Below the pieces are notes generated by a model. The model did not search any database, was not told the origin of the DNA, and saw only the letters and a list, made by a program, of their open reading frames with translations. From contig JAQSDX010000042.1 in assembly GCA_029946125.1 (NCBI GenBank), positions 1-32,120 on the forward strand: a DNA stretch of 32,120 bases, written 5' to 3'. Origin of the DNA: Candidatus Methylobacter titanis (lineage in GTDB: Bacteria; Pseudomonadota; Gammaproteobacteria; Methylococcales; Methylomonadaceae). Numbering within the stretch: position 1 is the stretch's first letter; every line of letters starts with the position of its first letter. Both the position numbers and the translations under genes were made by a program. Positions 1,186 to 17,231 of this stretch are shown piece after piece.

Positions 1186-1238
1186 GTCTTGCATTGTGCG
1201 TAATTAAGCTTTCTTTAGAGGCATGCACAATGCAAGAC
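1186..1238. repeat. 14-bp perfect inverted repeat between the two left TA modules
   Basis: GTCTTGCATTGTGC (1186-1199) and its exact reverse complement (1225-1238) flank a 25-nt loop. It lies between brnA and the convergent GNAT toxin gene. There is no T-tract on either side, so it is not a classic intrinsic terminator; it could still block read-through between convergent genes, or be the trace of a small element. Confidence 0.6.
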
Positions 1239-1285
1239 CTTATATTCCCTTTCTTGGATCAGCCCATCCAAACTGACGAAGGTTA

Positions 1286-1795
1286 TTATGAGAGGTCGGC
1301 AAACTTGATAAGGTCTAGGGCGTAGGTTGGCGTTTCGGTTGGAAGGCGGGCAAAACCGTAATGCAAATAGAAGGCTTCCGCTTCTGGAGAAATGGCATGT
1401 GCAATCAAAAGACGGGCGGATACTTCTTTAGCCGCACGGGCTGACCTTTGCACTGCATCTTGAAGCAGGGCTTTGCCTAATCCTTGGTCTTGCCATCTCT
1501 GATCAATGGCTAAGCGTCCAAGTATTACCGCTGGAATCTGGCGGGGCATATTCCGACGCATGGAACCAATAACCTCTTGGCTAAAAATCTGCCCCATGCA
1601 AATAGCGTAGTATCCAATAACCTTATGCGAACCGGACGGACAAATAACATAAGTTCTGCTTGCTGATGCTTCCATATTGGCGAATGCCCGCTTATGCAAC
1701 CAAGTATCCAGCGTTTCCTCGCCCGAGCGGAAGCCCTCTGTATCATGCAGTACGATTAAATGATCAGGTGAACAAATTTTCTTATTTTCACTCAT
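1286..1795 (-). CDS. GNAT-type toxin (TacT-like tRNA acetyltransferase)
   Basis: TacT/AtaT-type toxins acetylate the amino group of charged tRNAs and stop translation. The 169 residues show the GNAT acetyl-CoA loop at about 100-107 (RWQDQGLG) after ILGRLAID, and the toxin-clade ending EAEAFYLHYGFARLP, where Tyr143 is the expected catalytic tyrosine. Early residues CSPDHLIVLHDTEGFRSGEETLDTWL match the N-terminal substrate-side motif of this group in composition and order (...FDSGEEXLDXWL). It follows its DUF1778 antitoxin with an 8-bp overlap, the normal antitoxin-first order. Convergent with brnTA. Toxin class is well supported; the exact tRNA target cannot be read from the sequence. Confidence 0.88.
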   Translation of the reverse strand: MSENKKICSPDHLIVLHDTEGFRSGEETLDTWLHKRAFANMEASASRTYVICPSGSHKVIGYYAICMGQIFSQEVIGSMRRNMPRQIPAVILGRLAIDQRWQDQGLGKALLQDAVQRSARAAKEVSARLLIAHAISPEAEAFYLHYGFARLPTETPTYALDLIKFADLS

Positions 1796-2078
1796 CCGAC
1801 CAAGGGGGATTGATTGTCCGCAATCGGTTCATCCCGTCAATCTGTTCTTGTGTTGCCGGTGTGTCCAGCCACTCCAATACGTTTTGGAATGTCTTGTTGT
1901 CTGCATAAATAGAGGTTTGGTCAAGGATCACATTCTTGGCTTCCTTAAGTGCTGAGGCCATCATAAATTGCGAACGATTTGAACCAAGCAACTCTGCCGC
2001 TTGGTCGATAAGCAATCTATCATGTGCTTTCGCGCGCAAGTGAATGTTTACTTCTGCGGGTGTGTGTTCTGTTCTCAT
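1788..2078 (-). CDS. DUF1778 ribbon-helix-helix antitoxin (TacA-like)
   Basis: This is the partner antitoxin of the GNAT toxin. VNIHLRAKAHDRLLIDQAAELLGSNRSQFMMASALKEAK is read as the DUF1778 strand-helix-helix DNA-binding domain. The C-terminal part (LEWLDTPATQEQIDGMNRLRTINPPW) contains the toxin-neutralising helices, ending with the common LRTxxPPW motif. I chose the ATG at 2078 (96 residues); a longer TTG start at 2093 adds five residues and has no better ribosome-binding site. The promoter just upstream has overlapping inverted repeats, consistent with autoregulation by the antitoxin-toxin complex. Confidence 0.87.
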   Translation of the reverse strand: MRTEHTPAEVNIHLRAKAHDRLLIDQAAELLGSNRSQFMMASALKEAKNVILDQTSIYADNKTFQNVLEWLDTPATQEQIDGMNRLRTINPPWSDE

Positions 2079-2113
2079 AGCCTTTAATGCCAATTAACTA
2101 ATTTCTTGTTAAA

Positions 2114-2160
2114 AGTATCTGCTAAATGTGTTACACATGTCAACACAGTGCTGCATGTGT
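2114..2160 (-). promoter_or_regulatory. Promoter/operator of the GNAT toxin-antitoxin operon
   Basis: Reading on the minus strand there is TTGACA (2143-2138), 17-18 bp, then GATACT (2119-2114). Two palindromes overlap it: TGTGT-T-ACACA at 2127-2137 in the spacer, and ACACATG (2133-2139) with CATGTGT (2154-2160) across the -35. Such sites are typical operators for ribbon-helix-helix antitoxins. Confidence 0.6.
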
Positions 2161-2161
2161 T

Positions 2162-3694
2162 TTAATCCTGCTCAGCCTTGCTTGCCAATACCGACTGATC
2201 CATTAGCCGACTCAACCAAGCCTCTGCCGTTGTTTTATTGATTTTCAATACACTATTCGGAAAGAAGCCAATTCCCAATATCAGCAATGCCGACACGCAC
2301 AACAAGGTCAGTTCTCGGGGACGCAAATCCTGCACCTGCTTGACGCTAGACTGGGTGATCGGGCCGAAGAAGGCGCGACGGGTAAAGGACAGCATATACG
2401 CCGCGCTGAGTATCGCGCCGATCAGGGCCGCGATGCTGATGCTGGGATGCGCCAGCATGGTGCTGACTATCAACAGTAATTCGGCCGGAAAACCGCTGGT
2501 GCCGGGCAAGCCCATGCTGGCCAGCGCAAATAAAAAATAAAAACAGGTTAAGCGCGGCATGACTTTAGCCAGGCCGCCCAGATGAATGGCTTCGGTACTG
2601 CCCAGACGATGCTGGATAAAACCGGCCACCAGCATCAGGGAACCGGCGACCATCGTGAAGTTCAGTAACTGGAAAATCGCCCCCTGTATGCCCTGCATAT
2701 TCAAGGAGGCAATGCCGACGATAACCAGTCCCACATGGCTGACGCTGGCATAAGCCAGCAAGCGGCGTAAATTGGTTTGTTGCAGGGCGATTAGTGCGCT
2801 GTAAACCAGCGTAATCGCGCCGAGTATGCCCAACACCCAGCTGTATTCAACCGCAGCGGACGGCGCCAGCGGCATGGTAAACCGAATGATGCCGAAAGCG
2901 CCGAGTTTCAAGCCGATTAATAAGGCTGTCATTTGCGTCGGACCTTCCATAGCGACAGTCGGCAGCCAGGTATGGAAAGGCACTAAGGGCGCTTTAACGG
3001 CAAAGCCGAGCAGTAATAAAATAAATACCAGCGTCTGCAAGTGATCCGGCAAGGCCGTTGCCAATAATACCGGCAAGCTGAAGGACAAGTCCTGCGGAAT
3101 ACTGCCGCCCACCGCCGTGGCGTGATTCATCGCCAGGATGATAATCGCAAACAATAACGGCACGCCGCCAAACAGCATAAACAGCGTGTATTTGATTGCT
3201 GCGCTGCGCCGTTCCGAGCCTATACCCCATAAACCGATTAAAAAGAAAATAGGCGGCAGGGTCAGTTCCCAGAACAAAAAGAACAGCGCCATATCCAGCG
3301 CCGAAAATACGCCGATAGTCACGCCTTCCAGCGCCAGCAATAAGGCTAAATGAAGTCGGGGCATCGTTTGCACCGAATTCCATGACGCCACGATCACCAT
3401 GAAGGTTAACAAGGCGGACATCGGCAAAAACAACACAGAAATGCCGTCTACGCCAAGCAGATATTCAATATTCAGGCCGGGTATCCAGGCATACCGCTCG
3501 ACCAGTTGAAAACCATCGCCTAGGTCGGCATTAAATAGTTGCACCACCCTCAGCGTTGCGATCAATTCCAGCACGGCAACCCATAACGCAATGTTTTTGG
3601 CCAGTTGGATATTACGAATAAACGTTACCGCAATCGCGCCTGATAAAGGCAGCAAAATAAGCAGGCTTAACAGGGGGAAACTGGCATTATTCAT
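2162..3694 (-). CDS. NuoM/MrpD-like proton-translocating membrane subunit (dab operon, gene 5)
   Basis: A polytopic inner-membrane protein of the complex I/Mrp antiporter family (NuoM type), 510 residues with about 14 hydrophobic segments. The canonical channel residues are present: Glu143 in LFFLFWELTLPP (TM5), Lys234 in GFAVKAPLVPFHTWLP (TM7) and Lys263 in GLKLGAFGIIRF (TM8). It is the last gene of an operon containing DabA and DabB and overlaps the preceding gene by 8 bp, so it is probably part of a membrane complex coupling cation flow to inorganic-carbon capture. No other complex I genes are nearby, which argues against a respiratory Nuo role. There is no strong ribosome-binding site, and the overlap suggests translational coupling. 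No terminator is evident before the toxin-antitoxin genes. Confidence 0.85.
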   Translation of the reverse strand: MNNASFPLLSLLILLPLSGAIAVTFIRNIQLAKNIALWVAVLELIATLRVVQLFNADLGDGFQLVERYAWIPGLNIEYLLGVDGISVLFLPMSALLTFMVIVASWNSVQTMPRLHLALLLALEGVTIGVFSALDMALFFLFWELTLPPIFFLIGLWGIGSERRSAAIKYTLFMLFGGVPLLFAIIILAMNHATAVGGSIPQDLSFSLPVLLATALPDHLQTLVFILLLLGFAVKAPLVPFHTWLPTVAMEGPTQMTALLIGLKLGAFGIIRFTMPLAPSAAVEYSWVLGILGAITLVYSALIALQQTNLRRLLAYASVSHVGLVIVGIASLNMQGIQGAIFQLLNFTMVAGSLMLVAGFIQHRLGSTEAIHLGGLAKVMPRLTCFYFLFALASMGLPGTSGFPAELLLIVSTMLAHPSISIAALIGAILSAAYMLSFTRRAFFGPITQSSVKQVQDLRPRELTLLCVSALLILGIGFFPNSVLKINKTTAEAWLSRLMDQSVLASKAEQD

Positions 3695-5234
3695 GTGGGT
3701 CGTTGTCGTCGGTGGAGGGTACGCCGTGCATCGGATATTGCTTGCCGATTTCAGCCGCGTCCTGGTCGATAAAATTCAGCCACGGGGTCGTGTAAAATCC
3801 GGTGCCGATCAGCAGCAGACAAATCATCGCGGCGATAATGCGCTCGGTTTTGACTGGATGGTGCGCACAGCTGTAGGGCTGTACAGCACGTTTGGACGCC
3901 GCCATAAAAATTCGCTGAAAAGCCCATAACAGGAACGCGGCGGACAACAGGTTGCCGACCAAAATAGCAATGGCCAGTAACCAGCCATATTCCTCAATAA
4001 TGCCTTCAACGAGCAAATGTGCCGCATCAAAACCGGTGGTACCGGGCATCACCATCGTACTCAGTGCGGACAGCAAAAACAGCAAGGCCAGCGTACCGTT
4101 GGTGTTAAATAACCCGCCCAGCCGGGGAATAAAAGCGGTGCGGGTACGCTCGTAAATCAGACCGATGCTGAACAACATACCCGCCATCGCCAGACCGTAT
4201 GCCACGGACAGCAATAGACTACCTTCCAGGCCGTTCGCATTAAAGCAGAAGGCGCCAATGACCAGCATCCCTGTTTGGCTGATGACCGCAAAAGCCAGCA
4301 ACCGCCGAATATTGATCTGCATTAATGCCAGCAAGGCGCCGTAAAAAATGCTGATCAGGCCCAGCGTCACCACAAAGCCGGCCCATTGTTCGACGACCCC
4401 GGGCACCATCGGTAAGATGAAGCGAATGGCTGCATAAATGCCCAGCTTCAAGCCGACCAGAAACACCACAGCACTGGCGACCGTGCCTTGTTCGGCCAAT
4501 ACCGGCAACCAGCCGTGAAACGGAAATAATGGCATACGGATCGCAAAGCCGAAAAACAGCAGGATAAAAATCAACACTTCATCATGCAAATAGGCGTTAT
4601 TCTGTTTTAGCGTCACCCAGTCGAAGGTCAATGCATGGCTGGAATCGATTAAGCCGAAAGCCAGCAGCAAAAAACCCGCCAGGGTCAACAACAAACCGCT
4701 GACCCAATATTGCAGCAATAAGACCACAACCCAGCGCCGTTTTTGTCCGGTTCCGGCATGCACCGTCAGCAGCACGACGGGAATCAGTTCCAGCACACAC
4801 CAAAACCAGAACTGCAAAACATTCAACGCGACAAAAGCGCCGATCAATATCGTTTCATAACCCAGCAGGCAGGCAATAAACAGCCGGTCGGTCACATGAC
4901 GGGTAATCAGCGTATAAATCAACGCCAGCAAGGTTAAAATGGCGGTCAGCGGGATAAATAAAATATTGGTCCCATCAACGCCGACACGATAACTAAGACC
5001 GGCAAAATGCAGCTGTTCAACCAGATGAATACCGGGAAGACCAGAATCGAAAACAGTCAGCAGATAGAGGCTAAGCAATACCGTCAACAGCGCTCCGGCA
5101 AAACCAAAACGCAACGCAACCCTTGGTGAGCGCGACAACAGGATAGCAATCATGGCCAGCAGAGGAACCAACGTCAACGTAGTGAGCAGCGGAAAGGCCA
5201 CAGATTCCGACCAGGGAGTCACAGTAATATCCAT
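3687..5234 (-). CDS. Divergent NuoM-like membrane subunit with altered channel residues (dab operon, gene 4)
   Basis: A NuoM-family polytopic protein of 515 residues. I chose the ATG at 5234 because GAGG lies 5 bp upstream; a TTG at 5252 would overlap dabB. Compared with the other two NuoM-like proteins of this operon it is unusual. In TM5 the motif is FWCVLELIP, so the position of the canonical Glu is Val147 and a Glu appears two residues later (149). In TM7 the conserved Lys is Arg233 (AIRMPLFPFHGWLP). The Lys in TM8 is kept (GLKLGIYAAIRF, 263). The stretch after HGWLP is AEQGTVAS instead of the usual EAPSPVS type. It may be a structural or regulatory antiporter-like subunit, or one with changed ion handling. 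It overlaps the next gene by 8 bp and follows dabB after 7 bp. Confidence 0.83.
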   Translation of the reverse strand: MDITVTPWSESVAFPLLTTLTLVPLLAMIAILLSRSPRVALRFGFAGALLTVLLSLYLLTVFDSGLPGIHLVEQLHFAGLSYRVGVDGTNILFIPLTAILTLLALIYTLITRHVTDRLFIACLLGYETILIGAFVALNVLQFWFWCVLELIPVVLLTVHAGTGQKRRWVVVLLLQYWVSGLLLTLAGFLLLAFGLIDSSHALTFDWVTLKQNNAYLHDEVLIFILLFFGFAIRMPLFPFHGWLPVLAEQGTVASAVVFLVGLKLGIYAAIRFILPMVPGVVEQWAGFVVTLGLISIFYGALLALMQINIRRLLAFAVISQTGMLVIGAFCFNANGLEGSLLLSVAYGLAMAGMLFSIGLIYERTRTAFIPRLGGLFNTNGTLALLFLLSALSTMVMPGTTGFDAAHLLVEGIIEEYGWLLAIAILVGNLLSAAFLLWAFQRIFMAASKRAVQPYSCAHHPVKTERIIAAMICLLLIGTGFYTTPWLNFIDQDAAEIGKQYPMHGVPSTDDNDPHE

Positions 5235-5241
5235 CAGAACC

Positions 5242-6813
5242 TCAAAAAGCAACGAGCAATGTTATCAACACAAACAACACCAGATAGCGGGGTCTAAGCA
5301 CTGATTGTTCAAATTTATTGGCGATATGTCCAAGTTGGCGGCCATACTTAATCGTATCTTTACCGATGCCGCGCAACACAAGACGGTCTTCGAACCAGTG
5401 CAGGATGGCTGCCGTCCATTCGGTGAGTTTCCCTGCCAGCCCGCTGCCTCGGGCAAATTTATCGGCGTCATTATCCAGTTTCGCGCCGACTATCTGTTCT
5501 TCCAGTTGCGCCAGTGACGATATCGCCTGGATGACGGGAGCAGCTCCGCCCATAACCCGGTCAACGATATGATCGTCAAAATAGCTCAGGTCATGCGCCA
5601 AGCCGCGCACCGGTTTGACCAGCGCCCAATCGGTAATCGGATCCAGCCAGAAACGCTGCACCGAGGCCACATATCTCCAGGCTGGGGTATCGCCTACAGA
5701 AGCTTTGCGCTGCGAACTGTCTACGCTCAGACCGTGCACATTATGCATCAGCGATGGCGCAGTCAGAAACAGATAACCACGCACCACCGCATGGGCACAA
5801 AGATGCCAACCGGCCAGTTGCCAAAACCCCAATCCGCATTCCAGAAACATCAGGCCCAATTGGCCGGAGGTCGCAAAAATTAACGAACTTTTAACGTCGG
5901 TCTGGGTCAGCCCAACCACAAAACTGTACACAGCGGTGATCAAACCTACGACAGCGAGCACCGCCATTGCCAGGGTTGAATATTCAAAAACCGGCCTTAA
6001 CAAAATAATCAGATAGACACCGGCATGCACCATGACCGCGCCGTAAAATACCGCGCTCGACGGCGTAGGCCCTTCCATCGCACGACCCAGCCAGGAAGTG
6101 AAAGGCAGTTGCGCCGATTTGGCAAAGGCGGCAACCGAAAAAGACAGCGCAATCGCGGTCACTTCACCCGAGCTCAACTGAGCCGCAGCAGCATTCAAAT
6201 CATTCCAGTTAATGCTGCCAACCCAAGCATACGTTAAGCCGATCCCCAGAATAAATCCGGCATCGCCGATACGATTGGTCACGAAAACACGCGTCGCATT
6301 AGCGGCGGCAACCGGGCGATCGTAAGCATAGGCAATCAAAAAATAAGAACTTAACCCGGCAATTTCCCAGCCGATAAAAGTGCCGACGGCACTACCCGAT
6401 AACACCAGCAGCAGCATCGCCGAAGAAAACAGGCTCAGCATAAAAAAGAAGCGGTGATAACCGGCTTCCCGGTGCATGTAGTTCATTGAAAAGCGGATAA
6501 CTAGGGCTAGCAGTACTGCAAACAGCGCCGCCAAACGCACATGAAAACCAGTAGTGATAAAGTTTACCGGTATGTCCAGCGTGTCGCTGTTCAGCCAATG
6601 TCCCAGCGTGTATGTGCCGGTATTTTTACCCAGTAAATCGGCACCCAGCAAGGCCAAAGCCAACAGGCAAGACATGGTAATCGCCCAGCCCACAATATCG
6701 GCAGTTATGCTTTCACCGGTTTCGCCGTCGATGAAACCGAATAGATGTCCCAAGCCGACAACCGCAGCTGCGGACAAGGGCATTAAGGGAATCAGAATGA
6801 CTAATGCATCCAT
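5242..6813 (-). CDS. dabB: DabB: NuoL-like membrane subunit of the inorganic-carbon pump
   Basis: DabB is the cation-translocating partner of DabA in DAB carbon-uptake complexes. The 523 residues carry the NuoL/MrpA core: MHREAGYHRFFF, then Glu150 in FIGWEIAGLSSYFL (TM5), Lys232 in AKSAQLPFTSWLGRAMEGPT (TM7) and Lys308 in TDVKSSLIFATSGQLG (TM8). The usual HAATM of respiratory NuoL after this is YGAVMVHAGVYL. The core ends near residue 360; a polar amphipathic stretch follows (about 365-500), then one last hydrophobic helix, PRYLVLFVLITLLVAF. It is therefore shorter than E. coli NuoL (613). Its ATG directly follows the TAA of dabA with no gap, which suggests coupled translation and joint assembly. 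Confidence 0.88.
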   Translation of the reverse strand: MDALVILIPLMPLSAAAVVGLGHLFGFIDGETGESITADIVGWAITMSCLLALALLGADLLGKNTGTYTLGHWLNSDTLDIPVNFITTGFHVRLAALFAVLLALVIRFSMNYMHREAGYHRFFFMLSLFSSAMLLLVLSGSAVGTFIGWEIAGLSSYFLIAYAYDRPVAAANATRVFVTNRIGDAGFILGIGLTYAWVGSINWNDLNAAAAQLSSGEVTAIALSFSVAAFAKSAQLPFTSWLGRAMEGPTPSSAVFYGAVMVHAGVYLIILLRPVFEYSTLAMAVLAVVGLITAVYSFVVGLTQTDVKSSLIFATSGQLGLMFLECGLGFWQLAGWHLCAHAVVRGYLFLTAPSLMHNVHGLSVDSSQRKASVGDTPAWRYVASVQRFWLDPITDWALVKPVRGLAHDLSYFDDHIVDRVMGGAAPVIQAISSLAQLEEQIVGAKLDNDADKFARGSGLAGKLTEWTAAILHWFEDRLVLRGIGKDTIKYGRQLGHIANKFEQSVLRPRYLVLFVLITLLVAF

Positions 6814-9800
6814 TTAGTAAGCTCCAAAGCGTTCAGGCTGTTTGATCAACATCGGCGCTATCGGTAACGTTTGATCCTGATAACAAGCCGGGGAGTTATC
6901 GCCAACCGGCAAGTCTTTTGTCTGAGCTTGCCACCGCACAAAGCCCTCGCCAGGTTGGAACAAGAAAATCTCACCGCTATCGGGGTCTTTAGCGCTCAGA
7001 TGCACCCAGCCGCCCCCTACCAGCTCCCGTATGCTTGGCTGGCGCTGATAAATGTGTTCCAGCACCGATGTTTTCGCCTCAACCAGCATCTGCAAGCGCA
7101 TCGCTTCGTGCGTTTCAACCATCTGCTTAGGCAGACCGGTGCGCAAATCACTGGCAGTGCCCTCCATAACCCCGAACAAACCGGTTACGTTATGCGGTAC
7201 TTTGGTGCCGCAACCGAAACGTTCGTTGTCGATCGAGGAAAAATAATATTCCAGATTGATGCCGGCGCCGACTGGGCCTGCGCTCAGTAAAATCGACTCG
7301 AGGATGCTCCCGTCAGGGTCTTGACTCGGATCGTAGGAAATCAGGAATACACGCCGATCCAGAAACAATCCCTGGGTCAAGGCGCGCCGACCGATCACGG
7401 CCGCCGCATTGGTCGCATGACCAAACTCGGGACGAACCTGACTTAAATCTTGCGCTCTCAGCGTCACATGCTGAAAAGCTTCCGCTGGCGAGGCCGAGCG
7501 CTCGGCCGAGAAAAATCGTCGGCAACGCTCATGCGCGGATAATTGTTGCGCTCGACTGATACAGTCCCTGAAACGCTCGAAATCCTCACGCAGCAAAGCC
7601 GGTATTGCGTCCAGATCGTACCAGATCATGGCATCGCTACAGGTATCGTGTTGCATAGCAACGAACCAGCAGTCGTCAGGAATAACAATACCTTGCAGCG
7701 CCAGCGATGCACGCACTTCAGGCCGGTTGGCCATGGCCGCGACTACCCGCGCATTAGGTCCGCCCTTGCCACCGCCGCAGGCGCCACAATTATGCGCGGC
7801 TTCATGCGGGTTGTTATGACTGGTCGAGCCATGACCTGCTAACGCGACAATCCGCGCAAAACCGGCGGTGAGTCCTAAAACACGCAGCAACGCCGCTACC
7901 CGTTCGACTTGTTCGCTATCGGTAAATCCCAGTTTTGGACGTTCCGGAACGGCAACCGTCTCATCCGTAGCGGTAAACAGCAGTTGCGTTTTAACCTTAG
8001 GCGTAACCCGCTGAGCGATAGAGGAAATCATCTTTTTCTGCAGCTTGGGAAACAGCGATGTCGCCAATAATCCGGCGAAGGTAAGCGGCGAAATCGCATC
8101 AATCACCACATGCGACAACAACAGATTATGGCGCAAGTCCTGATGCACCTGCCTGGCAAGCCACAGGCTTAACTTACGGCCACGGTTATGCTGGAGTAAC
8201 GCCGGTCCGCTACCGGATTGCGGCAGTTCCTGAACCTCATGAGCCGGCGTCACCACTACCGGACACAACGACGTCGCCTTGCTGTCATCCAGACCTTTAT
8301 AATTCATCGCAACGCCAAAAAATCCGGCTGCCCCCAAGGTTTCGATAGCCGGGTTCAGCTCTTCCACATGGCGGCGGAAGCTTTCCTCTCGCTCATCCAT
8401 GCATACGATAATCTGCGCTGCGGAGCGCTTAATGCGCTTGAACCAACCGCCACGCTGATGATTGGCATGCAGCGCCTGGAAAAAACCTTCCCGATAATGA
8501 TGCTCGTAAGCTATCAGCCAGACTTTACTGCGCTCGGTCAGCGTGAACTCATCAAGCACCGCCAACATGGCCTGTAAATCTTGGGCGTCCAATTGTTGCA
8601 GGTCGGAAGCGCTAAGCCCCAGATGCTGGCATAAACGGAACAAACGCCAGCCGCTGTTGTGTGCCGTATGTTGTTCCGAATGAGTTGCCGCCGGACTGCA
8701 TTGCCAAGTCCAAATCAGGTCGGCAAGTTGCTGCCAATCGCTGCGGTCGTAACGCTCGGAACCGGCATGTAAGGTCAAGGCTTCGGCACGGTGAACCAGA
8801 TATTCAGGCAGGTCGCCCTGATACAGGCGGCTGCGTACCATGAATTCGGACAGGTTCTTACAGAAATAACCGCGTATGGCGCTGAGCTTGGCTTCTATTT
8901 TCCAGGTATCACGGCAGACCTGATTCAACCACAGTCGATCCAGGGTCAGGCGTATCGCCAGATAATCGGCCAACGTCGGTGCTGCGTCATTGGCGGGCTG
9001 ATAATTGGGGTGCTGCTGCCGCCAGTTGATCAGGCCCGACCAGCCGGGTATTTCCAGCGCCAGTCGGCGAAGATAGGGGTTCCATTGGCTTTGCGGTATT
9101 TCCAGATGAGTCAGTTGCAGGATGATGGTATCGACCGCATCTTCGGGCAATTCGGCGATAATCTGTTGCCAGTCAAGCAACTCATGCAAAAACGGATTGG
9201 CATCATACTGAGCCGTTGCCCGCCAGGCGGCATAAAGACCTAAGCGGCTGCGCTCAGGCAACTGCCATGCCGCTACGCCTTCATCCAGGCCTGATGCACA
9301 AAAACGTATCAGCTGGGGCCGAACCGAATCGAGAATGTCGATGCCGGTCAATGCCAGGATGACACCGCGCAAACTGATGTTATCGCCGACCTCGCCCAGC
9401 AGTTGATCCAATGCCGCGCCTGCCTGTTGCTGCATTTGCTGGTGCGTTGTCAGAGTGCTTCCGGTTCCACTGGTCTCGTTCCCATGCTCCTGCGTGGGAA
9501 TGCTGACTTGCTCCAGCCATTCTTCAGCCTGTTCCACCGACAAATCCAGCATAGCTTCCGGATGCAAAGCCGCCTGCTCCAGTCCGAGCTTGGTTAAAAT
9601 ACTTTCCCATAAAGGCCGAATAACCTTGCCATCGGCTGCAAGCAATGGCTGGCGAATAGGCTCAGGCACATCGGCTTGCACCGCATCCAGCGCCCCCAAC
9701 TCTTCTATTTGCCAGTTCAACTGGCTGACGCTGACCGCCTGTAGATCGAATAACAGCGCAATCCGGTAAATAGCCTGCCGGGTAATGGTCTTATCTTTTA

Positions 9801-10101
9801 ACCTACAAACGCTTTGTTCTGCCTGCAAGTTTGAGCACTGGGCAAATGCAGCGGACAAATCGCCGTCATCGATACGCCCCTGCCGGTAAAAATCCCGGTT
9901 TTTCGTTTCGGGAGCATAACCGCCAATACCGGTCAAGGCTTCGAACTCGGCTAAAGCCTGAGCAAACGGCAGATGCTGAAAACCATGTAAGGTATTGTGA
10001 TGCACGAAATCGAGGATAGGCCCCTGCCCCGGCAACACGTGATCCAGATGATTTAACGCGGCAATGATTTGTTCGCGTAATAGTAAAGCAGTCTCTTGCA
10101 T
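6814..10101 (-). CDS. dabA: DabA: DUF2309/UPF0753 zinc protein of energy-coupled CO2/bicarbonate uptake
   Basis: DabA is a cytoplasmic, membrane-associated protein with a beta-carbonic-anhydrase-like zinc site. With DabB it hydrates CO2 to bicarbonate in one direction, driven by a cation gradient. The expected active-site residues are all visible: Cys567 and Asp569 in [15 protein letters not shown], His757 in [12 protein letters not shown] and Cys772 in [14 protein letters not shown]. The His-Cys distance (15) equals that in the characterised Halothiobacillus protein (H524/C539). At 1095 residues it is longer than that DabA (roughly 800-870) and has the N-terminal [16 protein letters not shown] typical of the long subgroup. 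Residues about 200-210 are encoded by a palindromic repeat (see 9474-9503) inside a poorly conserved Gln/Thr-rich linker. It starts 8 bp after the upstream NuoM-like gene. Confidence 0.93.
9474..9503 (-). repeat. Palindromic interspersed repeat inside dabA
   Basis: TTCCCA (9479-9484) pairs with TGGGAA (9495-9500), and inner GC/GC pairs extend the hairpin. Read on the minus strand it matches most of the repeat at 21784-21811, differing at about five positions. It is in frame with dabA and encodes [10 protein letters not shown]. This looks like a mobile intergenic repeat tolerated within a flexible linker. Confidence 0.6.
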
Positions 10102-10109
10102 GGCTAAAC

Positions 10110-11600
10110 CTATAAAATCCGCTGACTGATCAAGCCGTTCATCTGGCTGATAGTTGCTGCGGACAAATCAAGCAGCGGCGCGGGCAGCAGACCGAACAAC
10201 ACAATACCCGCCACTAATATTCCGGCCGCCAATAACTCCGGCGATCTCAAGTCTTCAAGCTGAAGCATCGATGACTTTACCGGGCCGGTAAATAACAGGC
10301 TGATGGTACGTAGCGCGTAGGCGGCTCCGATTAAAATGCTGATGCTGAAAAACGCCATCAAGCCCAACCCCATGCCGACACTTGAGAACACGCTAAAACC
10401 GCCAATCAAGGTATGCAGTTCGGCAACAAAGCCAACCGAACCCGGCAGCCCCATCGCCGCCAACAAGGTTAAGGTCATAAACAAAGTAAAACGCGGCATC
10501 ACTCGAATCAGCGAACTGTAATCCTGAATATTGCGGGTATGAGTGCGCTCATACAGCAGGCCGACCAGCAGAAATAACGCACCGGCAATCAGACCGTGAG
10601 CGCTCATTTGCAACACCGCGCCGGTAATGCCCGCCTCGTTCAAGGTCGCGATACCCAGCAACACAATGCCCATATGGCTGATTGAAGAATAAGCCACCAT
10701 GGCTTTAAGATCGCTTTGCCGCCAGGCCAGCAGTCCGCCGTAAAGCATGCCGAACAGCCCCAGAAAAACCAACACCGGTTGCAATAATTTTGCCGCTTCC
10801 GGCAGCATCACTACCGCCCTGATCAAGCCGTAAGCGCCCATTTTCAGCAAAATACCGGACAGCAAAATACTCACCGGACTGGGCGCTTCGACATGCGCCA
10901 GCGGCAACCAGCCGTGCAACGGGAAAATCGGCATCTTAACGCCGAAGCCGATCACAAAACCGAGCAGGACCAAGACCTGCTCAACCCTGGGCATGTCTTG
11001 TGCCGCCTGGTGCATGGAGGACATCAAAGAGCCGCCATGTTCAAGATCGTACTGACTGATCGCCAACAAGCTGATCAGCATAAAAATCGAGCCGCCCATC
11101 GTATACAGCACGAAGTTAAGACTGGCGGTGTGTCGCCGTTTGCCGCCCCAGCGGCCAATCAGGAAGAACAGCGGGATTAAGGTCACTTCCCAAAAGATAT
11201 AGAACAACGCCCAATCCTGAGCCAGGAACACACCCAACATGCCGAATTCAAGCAACAAGATACAAATGTGATAGCCCTTAACGCTGCTGGATACGGTAAA
11301 TGAGGCCAGCAATGCTATCGAGGTAAGCAATGTCGCTAATACCAACATCGGCATCGACAAACCGTCTATGCCCAACGCATAAGCGCTGCCTAACTTAGGG
11401 TTAAGCGGGAAATATTCATTAAACTGTAAATCCGCATCGTGCGCGTTATAAATGCTAAGCAGCCAGCAGACCAATAAAAAGGCGATAGTGGTAAACAGAT
11501 TCGCGATATAGCGGATGAGCTGAATGTTCTGCCCGGGAGTCAAGGTCAGAAGCAAGACCCCGGCAGCCGGAGTCCAGAGCAGTATACTGAGTATCCCCAT
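10110..11600 (-). CDS. NuoM/MrpD-like proton-translocating membrane subunit (dab operon, gene 1)
   Basis: The first gene of the DAB operon. I chose the ATG at 11600, which has AGGAAG 9 bp upstream, over an upstream ATG at 11678 that would add 26 polar residues. The 496-residue protein is a typical NuoM: Glu138 in [18 protein letters not shown] (TM5), Lys222 in [14 protein letters not shown] (TM7), Lys253 in [11 protein letters not shown] (TM8). The Lys222-Lys253 spacing (31) equals that of E. coli NuoM (234/265). It should carry protons or Na+ and is probably one of four antiporter-like subunits of the complex with DabA. It could be mistaken for respiratory complex I subunit M, but no nuoA-K/N genes accompany it. 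A plausible promoter lies 50-80 bp upstream. Confidence 0.87.
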
Positions 11601-11650
11601 GATTTTAGTCTTCCTTATGCTCTGTTGTCTGCTAGTTTCAAGGGTTAGCA

Positions 11651-11678
11651 ATTGTACGTTAAGGCCGAGGCAGTGCAA
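11651..11678 (-). promoter_or_regulatory. Candidate promoter of the dab operon
   Basis: Minus strand: TTGCAC (11678-11673), 16 bp, TACAAT (11656-11651). This would give a leader of about 45 nt before the ATG at 11600. I see no clear LysR- or other regulator-type site close to it. Confidence 0.5.
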
Positions 11679-11839
11679 GCATTAACCTTGCAAACTAACG
11701 TTGTTATTTCACCCGCGCTTCAAAAGCGTTTTGCACCTGCCAGTTTACCATTGCAACCTTTCAGTATCCTTTCAAAGCAAATGCGGGGCACATTTACAGC
11801 GGTTTCATGTCGGTTAGCGATCAATATAATATTGTCGCT

Positions 11840-11883
11840 GGAGTGCAGGATTCGCCTGCTCTGGCAAGCAAAGCTTGCACTCC
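11840..11883. repeat. Branched palindromic repeat upstream of the dab operon
   Basis: Outer arms GGAGTGCA (11840-11847) and TGCACTCC (11876-11883) enclose two smaller palindromes: CAGG/CCTG, and GCAAGC/GCTTGC with an AAA loop. The three-way fold is typical of mobile REP-like repeats. The rest of the 437-bp gap 11601-12037 holds the dab promoter; no gene or obvious terminator was seen in 11884-12037. Confidence 0.6.
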
Positions 11884-12037
11884 CAATGCGCCTATATTGA
11901 GTCATCAACTGAATTGAAAAACGCTGTAATTATGCAATCAGCATTGCGCTGCGTAGCGTTGATATGTGAAGGGGCGATGCCTAACAATATCTCATTGACC
12001 CTTTATCCGGTTTATAACTTATTTTTATGACATCCGC

Positions 12038-15000
12038 TCAGAAAACAAAGTTCCGCTTTAATAACGCTTCAAACTGCTCACTCGGTACCGGCTTGCTGAA
12101 TAAATAACCCTGCATCTCATCACAACCCTGTTCGCGCAGAAACGCCAGTTGCGCTGATGTTTCCACACCTTCGGCAATGGTTTGCAGGTCAAGGGCCTTG
12201 GCCAAATTGATAATGGCGCTGACAATAGCCTTGTCTTCAGGGTCGATATTGATGTCACGGACAAAGGATTGGTCGATCTTGAGTTTGTACACCTTGAATT
12301 TCTTCAGATAGCTCAGCGAGGAATAGCCGGTACCGAAATCATCGATCGACATACGAATACCGCGCTCGTGCAGATTGTTCATCACCGCGATGGCGCCTTG
12401 CGGATTGTGCATCGCCACGCCTTCGGTCAACTCCAGTTCCAGATACTCGGGTGGCAAGCCCTCTTCGTCGAGGATGCGTGTGATCAGCTCGGGCAAATCG
12501 GGATGACGAAACTGCACCGCTGACAGGTTCACTGCCATAATCAGAGGGCCGAAACCCTCATCCGCCCAGGCTTTCGCCTGACGCACGGCACACCTTAATA
12601 CCCATTCCCCAATCGGCAAGATCAAGCCACTGCTTTCTGCGACAGGAATAAATTCTGTCGGAGACACCCTGCCCAATTCGGGATGCTGCCAGCGCAATAA
12701 GGCCTCCGCCCCAATGACACGGCCATCTTCCATGGAAACTTGCGGCTGGTAATAGACCTGTAATTGCTTACGTTCCAGCGCGTGATGCAATGCATTCACC
12801 AATTGCAGATTGTGTGCCGAATGCTCTTGCATTTCTTGAGTAAAGAAACGATAGCATTGGCGTCCTTCCTGTTTGGCGCGATACATCGCCGCGTCTGCGC
12901 TCTTGGAAAGCGTTTCCAGGTCCTCGCCATCTGCCGGATAGAGCGCAATACCGATTGATGCGCTCAGGGTCAGGTCATAAAGCTCGATCCAATAAGACTC
13001 CGCAATGGCATCCAGTAACTTTTGCGCCACATGCGCAGCGCCGATGGCATCAACGCCGGGTAATAATAAAATAAATTCGTCCCCGCCCAGGCGCGTCACC
13101 GTATCTTCTGTTCGCAGCACCAGACGCAGACGTTTTGCCAGCTCAATCAACAAGGCATCGCCGATACTGTGGCCGAGCGAGTCATTAATATCTTTGAAAT
13201 GATCAAGATCGAGAAACATCAAGGCCAAGTGTCCGTTATGGCGCTTCGCCAAGCTGAGGGCGTACTGAAGATGATCATTCAGCTGAGTACGGTTCGGCAA
13301 TCCGGTCAGCGAATCGAAATTGGCCAGATAGTGAATACGCTCCTCGATACGCTTTTGCTCGGTTATATCTTCGTAAATTCCCAGTACACCGATAGTTTCC
13401 TTAGCCTCATTCTGAAGCGGCACTTTAGAGGTGCGCAGCCAGATATTGGTTCCATCAGGCGTGGTTTGCTGCTCTTCAAAGGCCAGTTTAGGACTATTTG
13501 AATCCATTACCCGCCGGTCGTCGACCCGATAAAGTTCCGCCTGTTCTTTCCAGGCCAACTGGTAATCGTCTTTGCCGATGATATCCTGCGCCGAGACTGC
13601 TCCCGCATCCCTGGCAAAAGCGGTATTGCAGCCCAAATAACGTAACTCCTGATCTTTCCAGAAAATACGCATAGGCGCGGTGTCGACGATCATTTCAAGC
13701 AGATGATAGGCATCTGCCAGCGAATTTTCAGCCTGCCTGCGCTGCGCCTCGCGCTCAAAGCTGTTCAGCGCATAGTCGATGTCCATCGCCATTTCCACCA
13801 GTAAGTCGCGTGCAGCTTGATCAAAGGCATTGATTTCGCCGCTATATAGCGTAAAAACCCCGATGACCACGCCGTTTCTGTGCAAGGGTAGCCCGGCTGA
13901 AGCCCCCCAACCGAACGTTACACCGCGCTCGCGCCATAGTGCGGTGGCAGGATCATGCTGAAAATCCTGACACCAGAAAGGCTGATCTTCACGCATAGCG
14001 GTTCCGGTTGGGCCGCGCCCGGCCGCCTCGTTTGCATCAACCGAGATTTGAATCCCTTCCAGATATTCGGTGCCGCAGCCATAAGACGCAACCGGCTTAA
14101 GCTGTTGGCTTTGTTGGTCCAATAAACCTATCCACGCCATCTTCATCGCGCCGAAAGTCACCGCAGCACAGCAAATTTGCGGGAATAATTCATCTTGCTG
14201 GTTGCAGCGCACAATGGCTTGGTTGCACTGGCTCAAAGCGGCATAAAGCTGAGTCATGCGCTGATTTTTCGCTTCGGCCTCGTTGCGCTGAGCATCAAAG
14301 CGGGCAAGGTTGATCTGCGTTGCCGACAGCCAGTCCAGCACACTGTTTTCCATGCCGGGTGCAACCGGAATGATGGCTGAAAAATCTCCGCTCCCTAGGC
14401 AGGCGATACGCCGATACAACTCATTTACCGATGAACCCAGAGTGGTATGCAAAGCCCGATAAGCGCGCCATAACATCCATATCAACAGCAAACCGAATGA
14501 GACGAACGCTATGCGTAAAAGCATAGCCACATGCTCCGCAGCGTTGACTCCATCCAGAGTGCGCTGATCCATCATTCGATAGACCTCGCTGATCGGTTGC
14601 ATCACAGCAGCCTTGGCCTGATGATAGCTTGCGTCTTGCAACATCCGGCTTGCCTTGAGACGGTTGACTTCGGTAGGTGCGCCTGTGTCTGTGGATTCGA
14701 TCAGCTTCATCGCGGCGAATTCAGTACGGGTGAGTTCATCCGAATGAGTCTTGGCTGTCGCCAGTTTGGCAAATTCTTCCTCGATAAAACCGGCTTGCCG
14801 CATCAGCTGCAGCAAGGCAACCTTTTGCCCGCTATCTGACCGCTGGTCATCAGCCAGTACCAGATCCCAATAGATCTCGTGATAATTGATCGGGCGGGAC
14901 ATCTTGCCGTCGCGGATGTCGAGAATATCCTGAAAGTGTTGTTTATAGATAGGGTTGCCGGTGATCACATAACTGCGCGCCATACGGGTAAGATCATCGG

Positions 15001-15175
15001 ACGACTGACGTAATTCATCAGCCAGCAAGTGGGATTGAAGCCGGGACGCATTGACGCGATCAAGCTGCTTTTCCGAACAGACGTATATGACAAAGAGAAT
15101 GGAAAAAATGGCAAACATTCCCAATGCCAGCCAGAGGCTGCGCGAAAATCGAGATAAATTGTTAGGAGGCCTCAT
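12038..15175 (-). CDS. Membrane GAF-PAS-GGDEF-EAL protein (c-di-GMP synthesis/degradation)
   Basis: A signalling protein of 1045 residues that could make or break the second messenger cyclic di-GMP. Order: TM1 about 14-31, a sensory periplasmic region, TM2 about 222-240, a short HAMP-like linker, GAF about 315-470, PAS about 490-615 ending in GIYEDITEQKRIEERI, GGDEF domain with intact motif GGDEF at 697-701, and EAL domain with Glu824-Ala-Leu in EALLRW. The RTED sequence five residues before GGDEF fits an inhibitory I-site (RxxD), so the cyclase is probably product-inhibited. The EAL domain also keeps DDFGTGYSSLSYL and KIDQSFV, so both activities look possible. It stands alone, upstream of and co-directional with the dab operon but 437 bp away. 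The ATG at 15175 has only a weak ribosome-binding site. Confidence 0.92.
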   Translation of the reverse strand: MRPPNNLSRFSRSLWLALGMFAIFSILFVIYVCSEKQLDRVNASRLQSHLLADELRQSSDDLTRMARSYVITGNPIYKQHFQDILDIRDGKMSRPINYHEIYWDLVLADDQRSDSGQKVALLQLMRQAGFIEEEFAKLATAKTHSDELTRTEFAAMKLIESTDTGAPTEVNRLKASRMLQDASYHQAKAAVMQPISEVYRMMDQRTLDGVNAAEHVAMLLRIAFVSFGLLLIWMLWRAYRALHTTLGSSVNELYRRIACLGSGDFSAIIPVAPGMENSVLDWLSATQINLARFDAQRNEAEAKNQRMTQLYAALSQCNQAIVRCNQQDELFPQICCAAVTFGAMKMAWIGLLDQQSQQLKPVASYGCGTEYLEGIQISVDANEAAGRGPTGTAMREDQPFWCQDFQHDPATALWRERGVTFGWGASAGLPLHRNGVVIGVFTLYSGEINAFDQAARDLLVEMAMDIDYALNSFEREAQRRQAENSLADAYHLLEMIVDTAPMRIFWKDQELRYLGCNTAFARDAGAVSAQDIIGKDDYQLAWKEQAELYRVDDRRVMDSNSPKLAFEEQQTTPDGTNIWLRTSKVPLQNEAKETIGVLGIYEDITEQKRIEERIHYLANFDSLTGLPNRTQLNDHLQYALSLAKRHNGHLALMFLDLDHFKDINDSLGHSIGDALLIELAKRLRLVLRTEDTVTRLGGDEFILLLPGVDAIGAAHVAQKLLDAIAESYWIELYDLTLSASIGIALYPADGEDLETLSKSADAAMYRAKQEGRQCYRFFTQEMQEHSAHNLQLVNALHHALERKQLQVYYQPQVSMEDGRVIGAEALLRWQHPELGRVSPTEFIPVAESSGLILPIGEWVLRCAVRQAKAWADEGFGPLIMAVNLSAVQFRHPDLPELITRILDEEGLPPEYLELELTEGVAMHNPQGAIAVMNNLHERGIRMSIDDFGTGYSSLSYLKKFKVYKLKIDQSFVRDINIDPEDKAIVSAIINLAKALDLQTIAEGVETSAQLAFLREQGCDEMQGYLFSKPVPSEQFEALLKRNFVF

Positions 15176-15280
15176 GATGTCTTTTTTCTGTTTATTCCGC
15201 GTGAGTCATCATAAGAAATCTTTCAATTGCAATGTAAACCATCATATTACGAAGGTGGTGAAATTTTTTAGTTTTTTTGA

Positions 15281-15340
15281 CTTCCCGTTTAAGTCGGGAC
15301 AAGTTGTTAAGCGTAAACCTGTCCCGACCTAAACGGGAAG
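15281..15340. repeat. Long inverted repeat (21-bp arms, 1 mismatch)
   Basis: Arm 15281-15301 begins CTTCCCGTTTAAGTCGGG, and arm 15320-15340 is its reverse complement except for one base; the loop is 18 nt. It sits between the secreted-protein gene and the GGDEF-EAL gene. There is no T-run on its downstream side on the minus strand, so although it may stop transcription it is better called a palindromic interspersed repeat. Confidence 0.7.
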
Positions 15341-15410
15341 ACCATCGAAGACAAGGAGTTGATTTTGTCACCGTATAGCGGATTGCCTTGCCGACAAATC
15401 CGCTTACCCC

Positions 15411-17231
15411 TTATTGAATGAGAGTGAGATCAATAAGCTCCAGCCATTGAGCTTTGCCGTCGACTTCCTGATGATATTGCATAGCAACAAAATAGGCGTT
15501 GCCAGTGACGGTATCGATCAGGCGAGGAATCAATAAGCGCTGATTTTTGGTGTCATAGACGGCCTGGAAAGACGCGCTAATTTCTTTAGGGCTAAGCGCC
15601 TGGATGTCTGACAGCGCAAAATTGAAAAGACTACGTCCGCTAGCGGGAGTCGCCTGATTTAGCAAGCTCAGGCGTGCCGCATACATCTTATCCAAAATCT
15701 GGAGTTTAGGGATATTCAGCTCACCGGACGTCGCATTGAATGTTGCTGATCCGGCGGCTGTCGTTGTCGGTATGGTCGGATCTAATGGATCGCGACCAGT
15801 ACCGGTAATTTTGATGGTGTACTGGTCATCGCTGTAGGGGAAAGCGGTGATATATTCTTCTGTCGTCGTAAACGTTTTCTTTTTAGAAGGGGCACTTGCA
15901 TCCTGACCCGATGCAGGAACGCCAGGCCTTTCTAAAACGGTGGATCCCGCTCCACATTGACCAGCAGGTACACCGGCATCACCCCCCATTAATGGTGAAG
16001 AAACAGCAATAAAATAATCTCTTGGCCCTGCTCCTACACCGATGTCAACAGAACTGGCCGTGTCAAAACAAGGGTCGACTATACCGATAAGAGCGCCATC
16101 GAAATAACCTTGCTCATAAGCCAGATACAGATGATTTGAAGCCCCGGCAGTGTTATCAGTGATAACATTTCCTTGCAAATCATTGGAATTACCCGTCTCA
16201 TCCACCCAACGGCTGAACGTGTATTCACGCCCCTCCATCAGCGGATTTTGCGGGTCATTTCCATTTTCAGCGGCTAATCTAGCGCCATCGAATACATAAA
16301 CCACCCAATTTTTCTTGCCGAAGCAAGCGCTACCTTGCGGACAAACATCAATGGTAATAACTTCATTGCCATTGCTACGCAATTTATACCAGTCTTTATC
16401 ACTGCCACTATATAAATGCCCGCTGATGTTTTTACGGCTATTCAGAAGCGTTGCTCGGGCGGAACGGTCATTAAACTCAATATCCACGTTATCAAGATGA
16501 CTATCCAGCTGTTCAATAATAGCATTGCCATTGGCATCTACCGGGTTGCCGATAATGGTGACGGTCAATTTCGCGTTGGCACTTTTCCCACGCTGATCGA
16601 CATACGTATAGGAAAAAATGTCATTAACCACTTCACCCGTTTTCAAGGCGATAACATTAGGGGCATTTCTATTCAGAATATAAGTAAAGCTGCCGTCAGC
16701 GGCTAACACCAACTTGCCGTAAGCGGCGACTGGAGAGCTGTTGCTGCTGATAAAAACACTGGTACCGTTACTGTCATTGGTGGTGACATCGCCAGTCACC
16801 GAAAAAACAGTATTAGTCGGTACCAGTGTGATGCTGTCATCTATTGCTATTGGGGTTTGCTGATTGCCCGCCACCTGAACAATCAAACGGGCACTGGAAC
16901 TTTGGCCCACATCGTTCGCATAAGTATAAGTAAAGCTATCGGTGACGACTTGACCGGCCGTTAACCTTGCGTTTTCGGCATTATCGTAGAGCGTATAAGT
17001 GGCGCTGGTACCTGACAACTCTACATAGCCATATTGACCTAATAAATTGCCCTTCATAGTAACAATACTGCCATAGCGGTCATTGGCACTCAGTGTTACC
17101 GAGGCAGTCGGCTTTATGCCGACCACCACCGAAACATAATCATCTTGAGCTTGCGGCGCTAATCTTATGCTGGCAGCAAACAGCTCAGTCGAGCAGAGCA
17201 GCAACACAAAAGGGGTTATTTTTTTCAACAT
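15411..17231 (-). CDS. Secreted protein with VCBS/cadherin-like repeats
   Basis: Function unknown. The 606-residue product begins with a signal peptide (MLKKITPFVLLLCSTELFAAS, cleavage near 20). Two VCBS-like immunoglobulin-type repeats follow, about 30-125 and 130-225; each has a YGxLxLxxxGxxTYxL core and a DxFxYTYxDxxGxSxxAxLxVxxxG ending. Residues about 240-420 resemble a prepeptidase-like beta domain (SGHLYSGSDKDWYKL, then cysteine-containing VCPQGSACFG). The rest is Thr/Ser-rich with no known motif; no transmembrane anchor, LPXTG or haemolysin-type GGxGxD repeats are visible. It is probably an exported surface or periplasmic adhesion-like protein. The start is supported by AGGAA 10 bp upstream. 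Confidence 0.75.
   Translation of the reverse strand: MLKKITPFVLLLCSTELFAASIRLAPQAQDDYVSVVVGIKPTASVTLSANDRYGSIVTMKGNLLGQYGYVELSGTSATYTLYDNAENARLTAGQVVTDSFTYTYANDVGQSSSARLIVQVAGNQQTPIAIDDSITLVPTNTVFSVTGDVTTNDSNGTSVFISSNSSPVAAYGKLVLAADGSFTYILNRNAPNVIALKTGEVVNDIFSYTYVDQRGKSANAKLTVTIIGNPVDANGNAIIEQLDSHLDNVDIEFNDRSARATLLNSRKNISGHLYSGSDKDWYKLRSNGNEVITIDVCPQGSACFGKKNWVVYVFDGARLAAENGNDPQNPLMEGREYTFSRWVDETGNSNDLQGNVITDNTAGASNHLYLAYEQGYFDGALIGIVDPCFDTASSVDIGVGAGPRDYFIAVSSPLMGGDAGVPAGQCGAGSTVLERPGVPASGQDASAPSKKKTFTTTEEYITAFPYSDDQYTIKITGTGRDPLDPTIPTTTAAGSATFNATSGELNIPKLQILDKMYAARLSLLNQATPASGRSLFNFALSDIQALSPKEISASFQAVYDTKNQRLLIPRLIDTVTGNAYFVAMQYHQEVDGKAQWLELIDLTLIQ

Follow-up and report, generated by a model that had tools for sequence, protein, structure and literature searches.

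The described systems closest to the locus considered here are the vectorial carbonic anhydrases of the DAB/DAC kind, among them DAB2 of Halothiobacillus neapolitanus (DabA2-DabB2, PDB 9rd0), which has been visualized by cryo-electron microscopy. According to the account of that structure (PMC13144422), DabA has a buried Cys2-His zinc site and a transmembrane "finger" whose Glu444 stands for K399/D400 of NuoL and is essential, activity being abolished when it is changed; Leu658, which replaces the Gln/His of beta-carbonic anhydrases, is strictly conserved across 150 DabA2 homologues and can be changed with in vivo activity unimpaired; Ile151 of DabB2 replaces the interface Glu of NuoL; and purified DAB2 hydrates no CO2 unless a membrane potential is present. 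Cyanobacterial NDH-1 complexes are noted there to hydrate CO2 as well. An earlier comparison of gene neighbourhoods (COGNAT, PMC5700660, 2017) had associated YbcC (DabA) with NuoL homologues, found NuoM and SulP genes to be frequent nearby where ybcC lies upstream, and proposed a connection between how many membrane-subunit genes are present and the number of ions, and in H. neapolitanus a neighbourhood consisting of NuoL, a hypothetical membrane protein, a 1046-amino-acid DUF2309 protein and PII has been recorded (PMC4633670). Here we consider a stretch of 32,120 nucleotides from Candidatus Methylobacter titanis (assembly GCA_029946125.1, contig JAQSDX010000042.1, positions 1 to 32,120, our contig C83), referred to below in its entirety as the window, in which genes for DabA and DabB share an operon with three NuoM-like genes, designated M1, M2 and M3. 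The occurrence of extra NuoM genes beside the DabA family is already known from the 2017 account, as is the idea of a changed ion number, which an earlier note on this stretch had raised beside a conjectured larger driving force.

The five open reading frames (ORFs) run on the minus strand, from position 11600 to position 2162, in the order M1-DabA-DabB-M2-M3, and the ORF list and the Pfam and NCBIfam models agree on this arrangement. Spacing is tight, with 8 bp between M1 and DabA, 0 between DabA and DabB, 7 bp between DabB and M2, and an overlap of 8 bp between M2 and M3; these are the distances that the earlier note had given. DabA matches PF10070 at 833 bits, and the only PDB sequence to match it is DabA2 of 9rd0 (E 3e-81). 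PF00361 is found in M1, DabB, M2 and M3 at 123-230 bits, including 230 bits for M1, 205 for M3 and 141 for DabB (over residues 142-360), and the NuoM model TIGR01972 is exceeded by M1 (477 bits), M3 (456) and, barely, M2 (276; cut-off 264). By NCBIfam DabB is NuoL-like, yet under the NuoL cut-off. The operon probably encodes a dedicated five-subunit complex for inorganic carbon: gene order, co-inheritance and the association of DabA with M2 indicate that the products most likely form a single complex, and homology, the zinc site and genomic context indicate that its role is probably one of uptake.

The arrangement is widely shared. In a scan by DabA alignment, the best 80 of at least 560 named loci encoding a relative were retained, and 61 of the 80 have M1-DabA-DabB-M2-M3 in order on one strand (counts here and below are of related sequences and not of independent events). 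The hosts include methanotrophs (Methylobacter, Methylomonas, Methylomicrobium, Methylovulum and Crenothrix) and nitrifiers (Nitrosomonas, Nitrosospira, Nitrosovibrio and Nitrotoga). Thirteen of the 19 incomplete loci have a contig end at, or within ~320 bp of, the place where the missing gene would be expected. Some loci are partial, consisting of DabA alone (L100, and L113, which begins at a contig end) or of M1-DabA alone (L129, L142), and in L120 and L135 the sequence stops 846 and 823 bp past DabA with no DabB match; because all six of these genomes carry a full-type M2 elsewhere, the partial loci are second copies. In a sample of 398 genomes from the phylum, M2 scores at least 400 bits in 35, the window's included, and the next match is at 298 bits. 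DabA is present in all 34 of the other M2 genomes, 18 of whose loci, from other families or classes, were inspected and show the full order in 15 cases, with two more (L187, L192) cut by contig ends. Since DabA itself is found in 69 of the 398 genomes (68 above the cut-off), the five-gene type occurs in about half of the DabA-bearing genomes of the sample; one further genome (G185) has DabA together with a truncated match to M2 (290 bits). At 31 other DabA loci (L213-L243), DabB lies upstream in 29, DabA comes first in L233 and no separate DabB was seen in L226; no M-type match was found at any of them within 3-5 kb on each side, or less near contig ends. The order is thus conserved across genera, families and classes, which rules out chance co-location and runs counter to the possibility, left open by the earlier note, that relatives would lack the arrangement; the genome search that it had proposed found the order abundantly. 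The five genes are an anciently inherited unit.

One of the 61 full-order loci, that of Methylobacter tundripaludum SV96 (L070, 14642-15479), has its DabB in two pieces, interrupted by an insert of ~0.9 kb with two ORFs on the opposite strand. The insert looks like an insertion sequence, and this would be a natural disruption in the SV96 assembly; identity medians were taken over the 60 remaining loci, L070 being left out for its split DabB.

A tree of 117 of the 157 antiporter-like proteins collected, built by a quick search and supported by the Shimodaira-Hasegawa-like approximate likelihood ratio test (SH-aLRT) alone, with 95 as the mark, places M1, M2, M3 and the DabB of the five-gene type each on one side of one branch (100, 100, 99 and 100, respectively). 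Together with the conserved order, these single clades bear out the proposal of one co-inherited unit with a complex-I-like set of membrane subunits. M2 and M3 are sister clades (97), and the five-gene DabB is sister to canonical DabB (99), NuoL lying outside this pair. The precise origin of M1 is uncertain, because it joins complex I NuoM at an open fork (83) and the ten rows for NuoM take two changes and are not a single clade. Within the M1, M2, M3 and DabB clades the order of genomes is much alike, as judged by eye only. In two species pairs the ratio of nonsynonymous to synonymous substitution rates (dN/dS) is 0.09 for M1, 0.11 for M2 and 0.11-0.13 for M3, and higher, 0.15-0.20, for DabA and DabB, so that selection on M2 is as strong as on the other subunits; the value for M2, along with its own invariant residues, rules out that it is a decaying gene. 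A four-gene set, DabA-NuoL-NuoM-NuoM, was also encountered in a different family belonging to the same order (L054 of genome G032, 7802-16278). The NuoL of this set clusters with that of complex I, at an SH-aLRT of 89 that does not reach the 95 mark, and the two NuoM copies are each other's sisters (100), from which it appears that DabA probably gained extra NuoM subunits more than once.

Residues of mechanistic importance were compared over all rows above a length floor (M1 91, M2 82, M3 78, DabB 84 and DabA 98, the last being 96 plus two further sequences; M1 and DabA rows include second copies from partial loci). The zinc ligands and the Asp-Arg dyad, represented in the window by C567, D569, R571, H757 and C772 and in DabA2 by C351, D353, R355, H524 and C539, are invariant in 98 of 98 DabA sequences, and the zinc site in the window is complete, as the earlier note had it; the equivalents of C542, H585 and E655 are likewise present in all 98. 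The five-gene type differs from DAB2 at the residues that mark coupling of proton flow to catalysis there, which are the finger Glu444, Leu658 and the lost interface Glu of DabB. At the Leu658 place there is His in 98/98 five-gene DabA, Leu in all 30 members of the group with DabB before DabA, and His in all seven of a two-gene group with DabA before DabB. Position 444 is Glu in 30/30 DAB2-type DabA, Gln in 7/7 DabA-first two-gene loci, and in the five-gene type never Glu (D 50, N 18, A 11, L 5, Y 5, V 3, M 2, T 2, H 1, F 1); the window's DabA has Asp here (D668), by which a carboxylate is possible at the finger place, and 48 of the 98 have a non-acidic residue. The interface Glu of DabB (the E144 place) and the Arg at the R175 place are kept in 84/84 five-gene sequences and the Glu also in the seven DabA-first two-gene loci; it is found in none of 29 DAB2-type DabB, which have V (10), I (8), M (3), A, S, T or L (2 each) instead. 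From these residues, the sampled DACs are divided into two classes that track gene order, with the five-gene type in the second. The His at 658 need not be decisive, since changes of Leu658 did not impair DAB2 in vivo.

The four antiporter-like subunits themselves are not alike. Compared with E. coli NuoM, M1 and M3 retain the equivalents of E144, K234, K265, H322 and E407 throughout (91/91 and 78/78, respectively). M2 keeps K265 in 82/82 rows; at the E144 place in transmembrane helix (TM) 5 it never has Glu (V, L, A, F, M, G or T being found instead), the TM7 Lys K234 is Arg in 82/82, and the E407 place in TM12 is acidic in none. Other polar residues are located close by: two residues past the E144 place M2 has Glu (66), Gln (15) or His (1), and around the E407 place it has Asp two before (80/82), His one after (82/82) and Glu/Asp five after (81/82). 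The usual glutamates of TM5 and TM12 are shifted or absent in M2, whose central axis has an invariant Arg-Lys-His set, R239, K269 and H412 (numbered from the TTG at 5252). DabB keeps E144, R175, K229 and H338 of NuoL in 84/84 and D178 in 83, with Glu in one, and its similarity to NuoL stops short of K399/D400 (gaps in 84/84), as in DAB2. The "four ion-translocating modules" of the earlier note are therefore upheld for M1 and M3, which have the full set of NuoM residues checked, and have to be revised for the other two: because M2 is altered and DabB is without the K399/D400 half, the count as read from the residues is of two full-looking modules, one half-channel (DabB) and one reshaped subunit (M2).

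Positions of the features discussed are collected in Table 1. Upstream of the operon in the window there is a GAF-PAS-GGDEF-EAL protein (12038-15175), followed by a Big_9/cadherin-like (VCBS-type) protein (15411-17231). When positions 1200-12500 were scanned for patterns, 9 sites resembled promoters, as compared to 10.1 in shuffled sequence, and 24 resembled terminators, as compared to 16.1 (standard deviation 4.5); these counts neither show nor exclude a single transcript.

Table 1. Coordinates, in the window, of the genes of the five-gene operon and of individual sites within them
Feature	Position	Strand	Description
M1	10110..11600	-	First gene, NuoM-like, 496 amino acids from an inner ATG; mechanical ORF start is TTG 11678
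DabA	6814..10101	-	Long beta-carbonic-anhydrase-like subunit, 1095 amino acids; PF10070
DabB	5242..6813	-	NuoL-derived, 523 amino acids; TM1-11 NuoL-like, C-terminal third diverged
M2	3687..5234	-	Altered NuoM-like, 515 amino acids from ATG; ORF from TTG 5252 has 521 amino acids
M3	2162..3694	-	Last gene, NuoM-like, 510 amino acids
DabA His895 codon	7417..7419	-	Place of DabA2 Leu658 (beta-carbonic anhydrase Gln/His place)
DabA residues 632-699	8005..8208	-	Predicted helical hairpin, place of the DAB2 transmembrane finger
DabA D668 codon	8098-8100	-	At the place of Glu444
DabB E150 codon	6364-6366	-	Equivalent of NuoL E144

The explanation that we favor is that the five subunits form one membrane complex in which membrane potential would drive CO2 hydration in one direction, toward bicarbonate, at the zinc site of DabA, with M1 and M3 as the main proton-conducting modules and with coupling by way of M2 and DabB; taken as a whole, we give it about an even chance (roughly 0.5). 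As in complex I, charge movement may be relayed from one subunit to the next, by way of an M2 reshaped for coupling, and the complete interface ion pairs of DabB (E150/R181 and K232/D184) would receive the drive and pass it to DabA, as opposed to DAB2, where coupling is local and goes via the finger glutamate of DabA. This particular route, from M1 and M3 to M2, to DabB and to DabA, is tentative. Doubtful, at this stage, is a stronger form in which M2 would no longer move protons in the usual way and would serve as a clutch between M1/M3 and DabA-DabB, or as a positively lined path for bicarbonate, making the complex a remotely driven carbonic anhydrase, comparable to a complex I running backwards, at ~2 protons per CO2.

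Several observations weigh against the favored explanation. M2 may still conduct, since most sequences have acids at shifted places (the TM5 Glu two residues on in 66/82, the TM12 Glu/Asp in 81/82). The interface Glu and His658 mark a deep subclass rather than the M subunits themselves, because the two-gene DabA-DabB group shares both (7/7), and a proton-coupled mechanism cannot be carried over directly from DAB2 to the five-gene type, because Glu444, essential there, is Glu in 0/98 here. As for the unit itself, there are the partial second copies already described, in which only DabA or only M1-DabA is present, and one locus of the phylum sample (L190, 1567-7530) reads M1-M3-DabB-M2, with its DabA on another contig (L244). 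No inorganic-carbon gene is seen within 5 kb at 61 of 98 loci, a figure for which many flanks are cut and there is no background rate. Bicarbonate could also come from enzymes other than DabA, since the window genome has four PF00484 carbonic anhydrase matches (one contains a stop). The predicted structure of DabB has a mean predicted local distance difference test score (pLDDT) of 71.4, being reliable for the most part up to about residue 350 and of low quality after it, and the low-quality region is where the DabA finger docks in DAB2. Lastly, the literature searched contained no experiment on a system of the five-gene type.

The other structural predictions, like that of DabB, are of single chains. 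The AlphaFold2 model of the window's DabA (mean pLDDT 78.6) has helices at 632-658, 660-683 and 685-699 in the place of the finger. A Foldseek search with it gave no match at E <=0.001; rank 2 was the carboxysome carbonic anhydrase CsoSCA, at E 0.02, and the DAB2 entry was absent from the 50 matches listed. NuoL-type chains (NuoL, ND5 and NdhF) are among the 50 matches listed for the DabB model.

Genomic context provides further insights into the role of the system. At 37 of the 98 loci there is an inorganic-carbon gene no more than 5 kb away (flanks are often cut); ten proteins of the window were scanned, the five of the operon and five others, and no such neighbour was among them. At 19 loci, 17 with Nitrosomonadales names and two with broader ones (L109, L130), a gene for a CsoSCA-like carbonic anhydrase of 352-373 amino acids is located 16 to 331 bp past M3, on the same strand in 16 cases and the opposite strand in 3. 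The single representative scanned matches the carboxysome carbonic anhydrase model PF20686 at 29 bits, and CMDGR and HxxC motifs are present in 19/19. This free-standing CsoSCA-like beta-carbonic anhydrase (e.g., L108 17954-19030) is perhaps a sixth member of the operon in Nitrosomonas-type loci. SbtA (PF05982) is found at seven loci and beta-carbonic anhydrase (PF00484) at seven, one of each having been scanned, and SulP or carbonic anhydrase genes at others. There is no RuBisCO match in the window genome (3.5 Mb in 146 contigs, 99.98% complete by the tool's estimate). Among 41 genomes, the window's included, RuBisCO was matched in 3 of the 27 that bear DabA, leaving 24 with no match; of the 34 other M2 genomes of the phylum sample, 1 has a match. 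Because most of the hosts searched have no match, a role tied to RuBisCO is ruled out, and in RuBisCO-free methanotrophs the bicarbonate would probably serve carboxylations other than that of RuBisCO.

The window genome has six PF00361 hits, four in the operon and two in a Hyf-like cluster (presumably the genes named HyfB and HyfF), and for this reason M1-M3 are not spare parts of complex I, of which no antiporter gene was found by the PF00361 search of this genome. Its PF01512 matches are confined to frames of 600 and 527 amino acids; several genomes of the same genus also have frames of 425-435 amino acids, which we take to be the size of NuoF. Two ORFs stand directly before the Hyf-like antiporter cluster (G000 contig C124, L008 8293-19414), of which one was scanned and is SulP-type and the other is similar by eye.

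Different roles for the M subunits, or a different direction for the whole, can also be envisioned. DabA-DabB alone might form the CO2-hydrating pump and M1-M3 a separate Mrp-like Na+/H+ exchanger that exports the protons of hydration or makes a sodium gradient. The weak matches of M1-M3 to MrpA/MrpD models and the description of the relative MpsAB as Na+-linked (PMC13144422) are consistent with this; we consider it unlikely, given that the operon has none of the small Mrp subunit genes, that the Mrp matches are far under their cut-offs (e.g., 165 as compared to 1104 bits), that M2 is without the standard residues and that DabA-DabB separate M1 from M2-M3 in 61 of the 80 loci, which suggests a single product. 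It is more improbable still that the complex runs in reverse, with CO2 hydration inside CO2-producing methanotrophs, or some other exergonic reaction of DabA, driving the export of ions, and more membrane subunits meaning more ions. Such a direction was proposed for operons with multiple membrane subunits (PMC5700660), and purified DAB2 (PMC13144422) goes against it in needing a membrane potential to hydrate CO2. The prevalence of M2- or DabA-bearing hosts with no RuBisCO match would fit reversal, and the SbtA, carbonic anhydrase and SulP neighbours point to uptake. CO2 hydration near equilibrium releases little free energy, which also counts against it. That M1-M3 are extra NuoM-type subunits of some other complex (an enlarged complex I, or Hyf-like) lying beside dabAB by chance is scarcely credible, their scores above the TIGR01972 cut-off being offset by the PF00361 and PF01512 content of the window genome, by clades separate from complex I NuoM, and by the conserved order and the 34/34 association of M2 with DabA, and as complex I spares they are ruled out.

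If the favored explanation of a five-subunit, potential-driven complex is true, it would represent a second means by which CO2 hydration is coupled to membrane energy, one in which the coupling elements are distributed over separate complex-I-like subunits. The removal or addition of modules would then probe how energy passes along an antiporter-like row in a system free of electron transfer, which is a long-standing question for complex I. It would also bear on the supply of bicarbonate in methane oxidizers and nitrifiers. By a hand estimate at 150 mV, one proton (~14.5 kJ/mol) would sustain a ~340-fold accumulation of bicarbonate and two protons ~10^5-fold.

No earlier description of the five-gene type, of the changes in M2 or of the His658 class was found among the papers listed by the literature searches, which were largely without subscription papers. 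The "clade C" YbcC operons of the COGNAT account share with it a YbcC gene upstream of a NuoL homologue and the frequent proximity of NuoM and SulP genes; the five-gene order, the three NuoM clades, the M2 changes and the catalytic-site differences are absent from the available portion of that account. With complex I and NDH-1MS, the five-gene type has in common a row of NuoL/M-type subunits. Complex I differs by its electron-input (NADH/quinone module) genes, of which the operon has none, and NDH-1MS, of which CupA is a part, by its NdhF3, whose CO2 model (TIGR01960) the window's DabB matches at 151 bits as compared to a cut-off of 589. The Mrp antiporters are set apart by the MrpA/MrpD scores and missing small subunits mentioned above. 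The H. neapolitanus neighbourhood of the 1046-amino-acid DUF2309 protein, which we take to be DAB1, has a long DabA and a PII-type neighbour, as in some Nitrosospira-type loci; its gene order is different and no NuoM gene is named in the accessible part of its description.

The greatest commonalities are with DAB2 and MpsAB, which have the same Cys2-His zinc site and Asp-Arg dyad in DabA; DAB2 shares as well a DabB that is NuoL-like over its first two thirds and without the K399/D400 half, and a helical hairpin at the finger position. From DAB2 the five-gene type is distinguished by its three extra NuoM-type subunits, by the order A-B where the DAB2-type loci fetched have B-A, by a DabA that is ~225 amino acids longer, with His for Leu658 and no Glu444, and by a DabB that keeps the interface Glu lost in DAB2 and has Tyr and Arg at the H254 and K342 places of NuoL. 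The two-gene DabA-DabB operons of related genomes (L063-L066, L118, L126, L137), three of which adjoin a five-gene operon, share His658, the lack of a finger Glu and the DabB interface Glu, and differ in the sizes of DabA (855-873 amino acids) and DabB (626-668) and in having no M genes of their own that were seen. The L054 set likewise combines DabA with extra NuoM genes; it is apparently a separate assembly, and its DabA is only 33% identical. With a zinc site and dyad in DabA and a NuoL-like DabB adjoining it, the locus has two hallmarks of the DAB/DAC vectorial carbonic anhydrases, and it departs from the two-subunit DAB in its three further, co-inherited genes.

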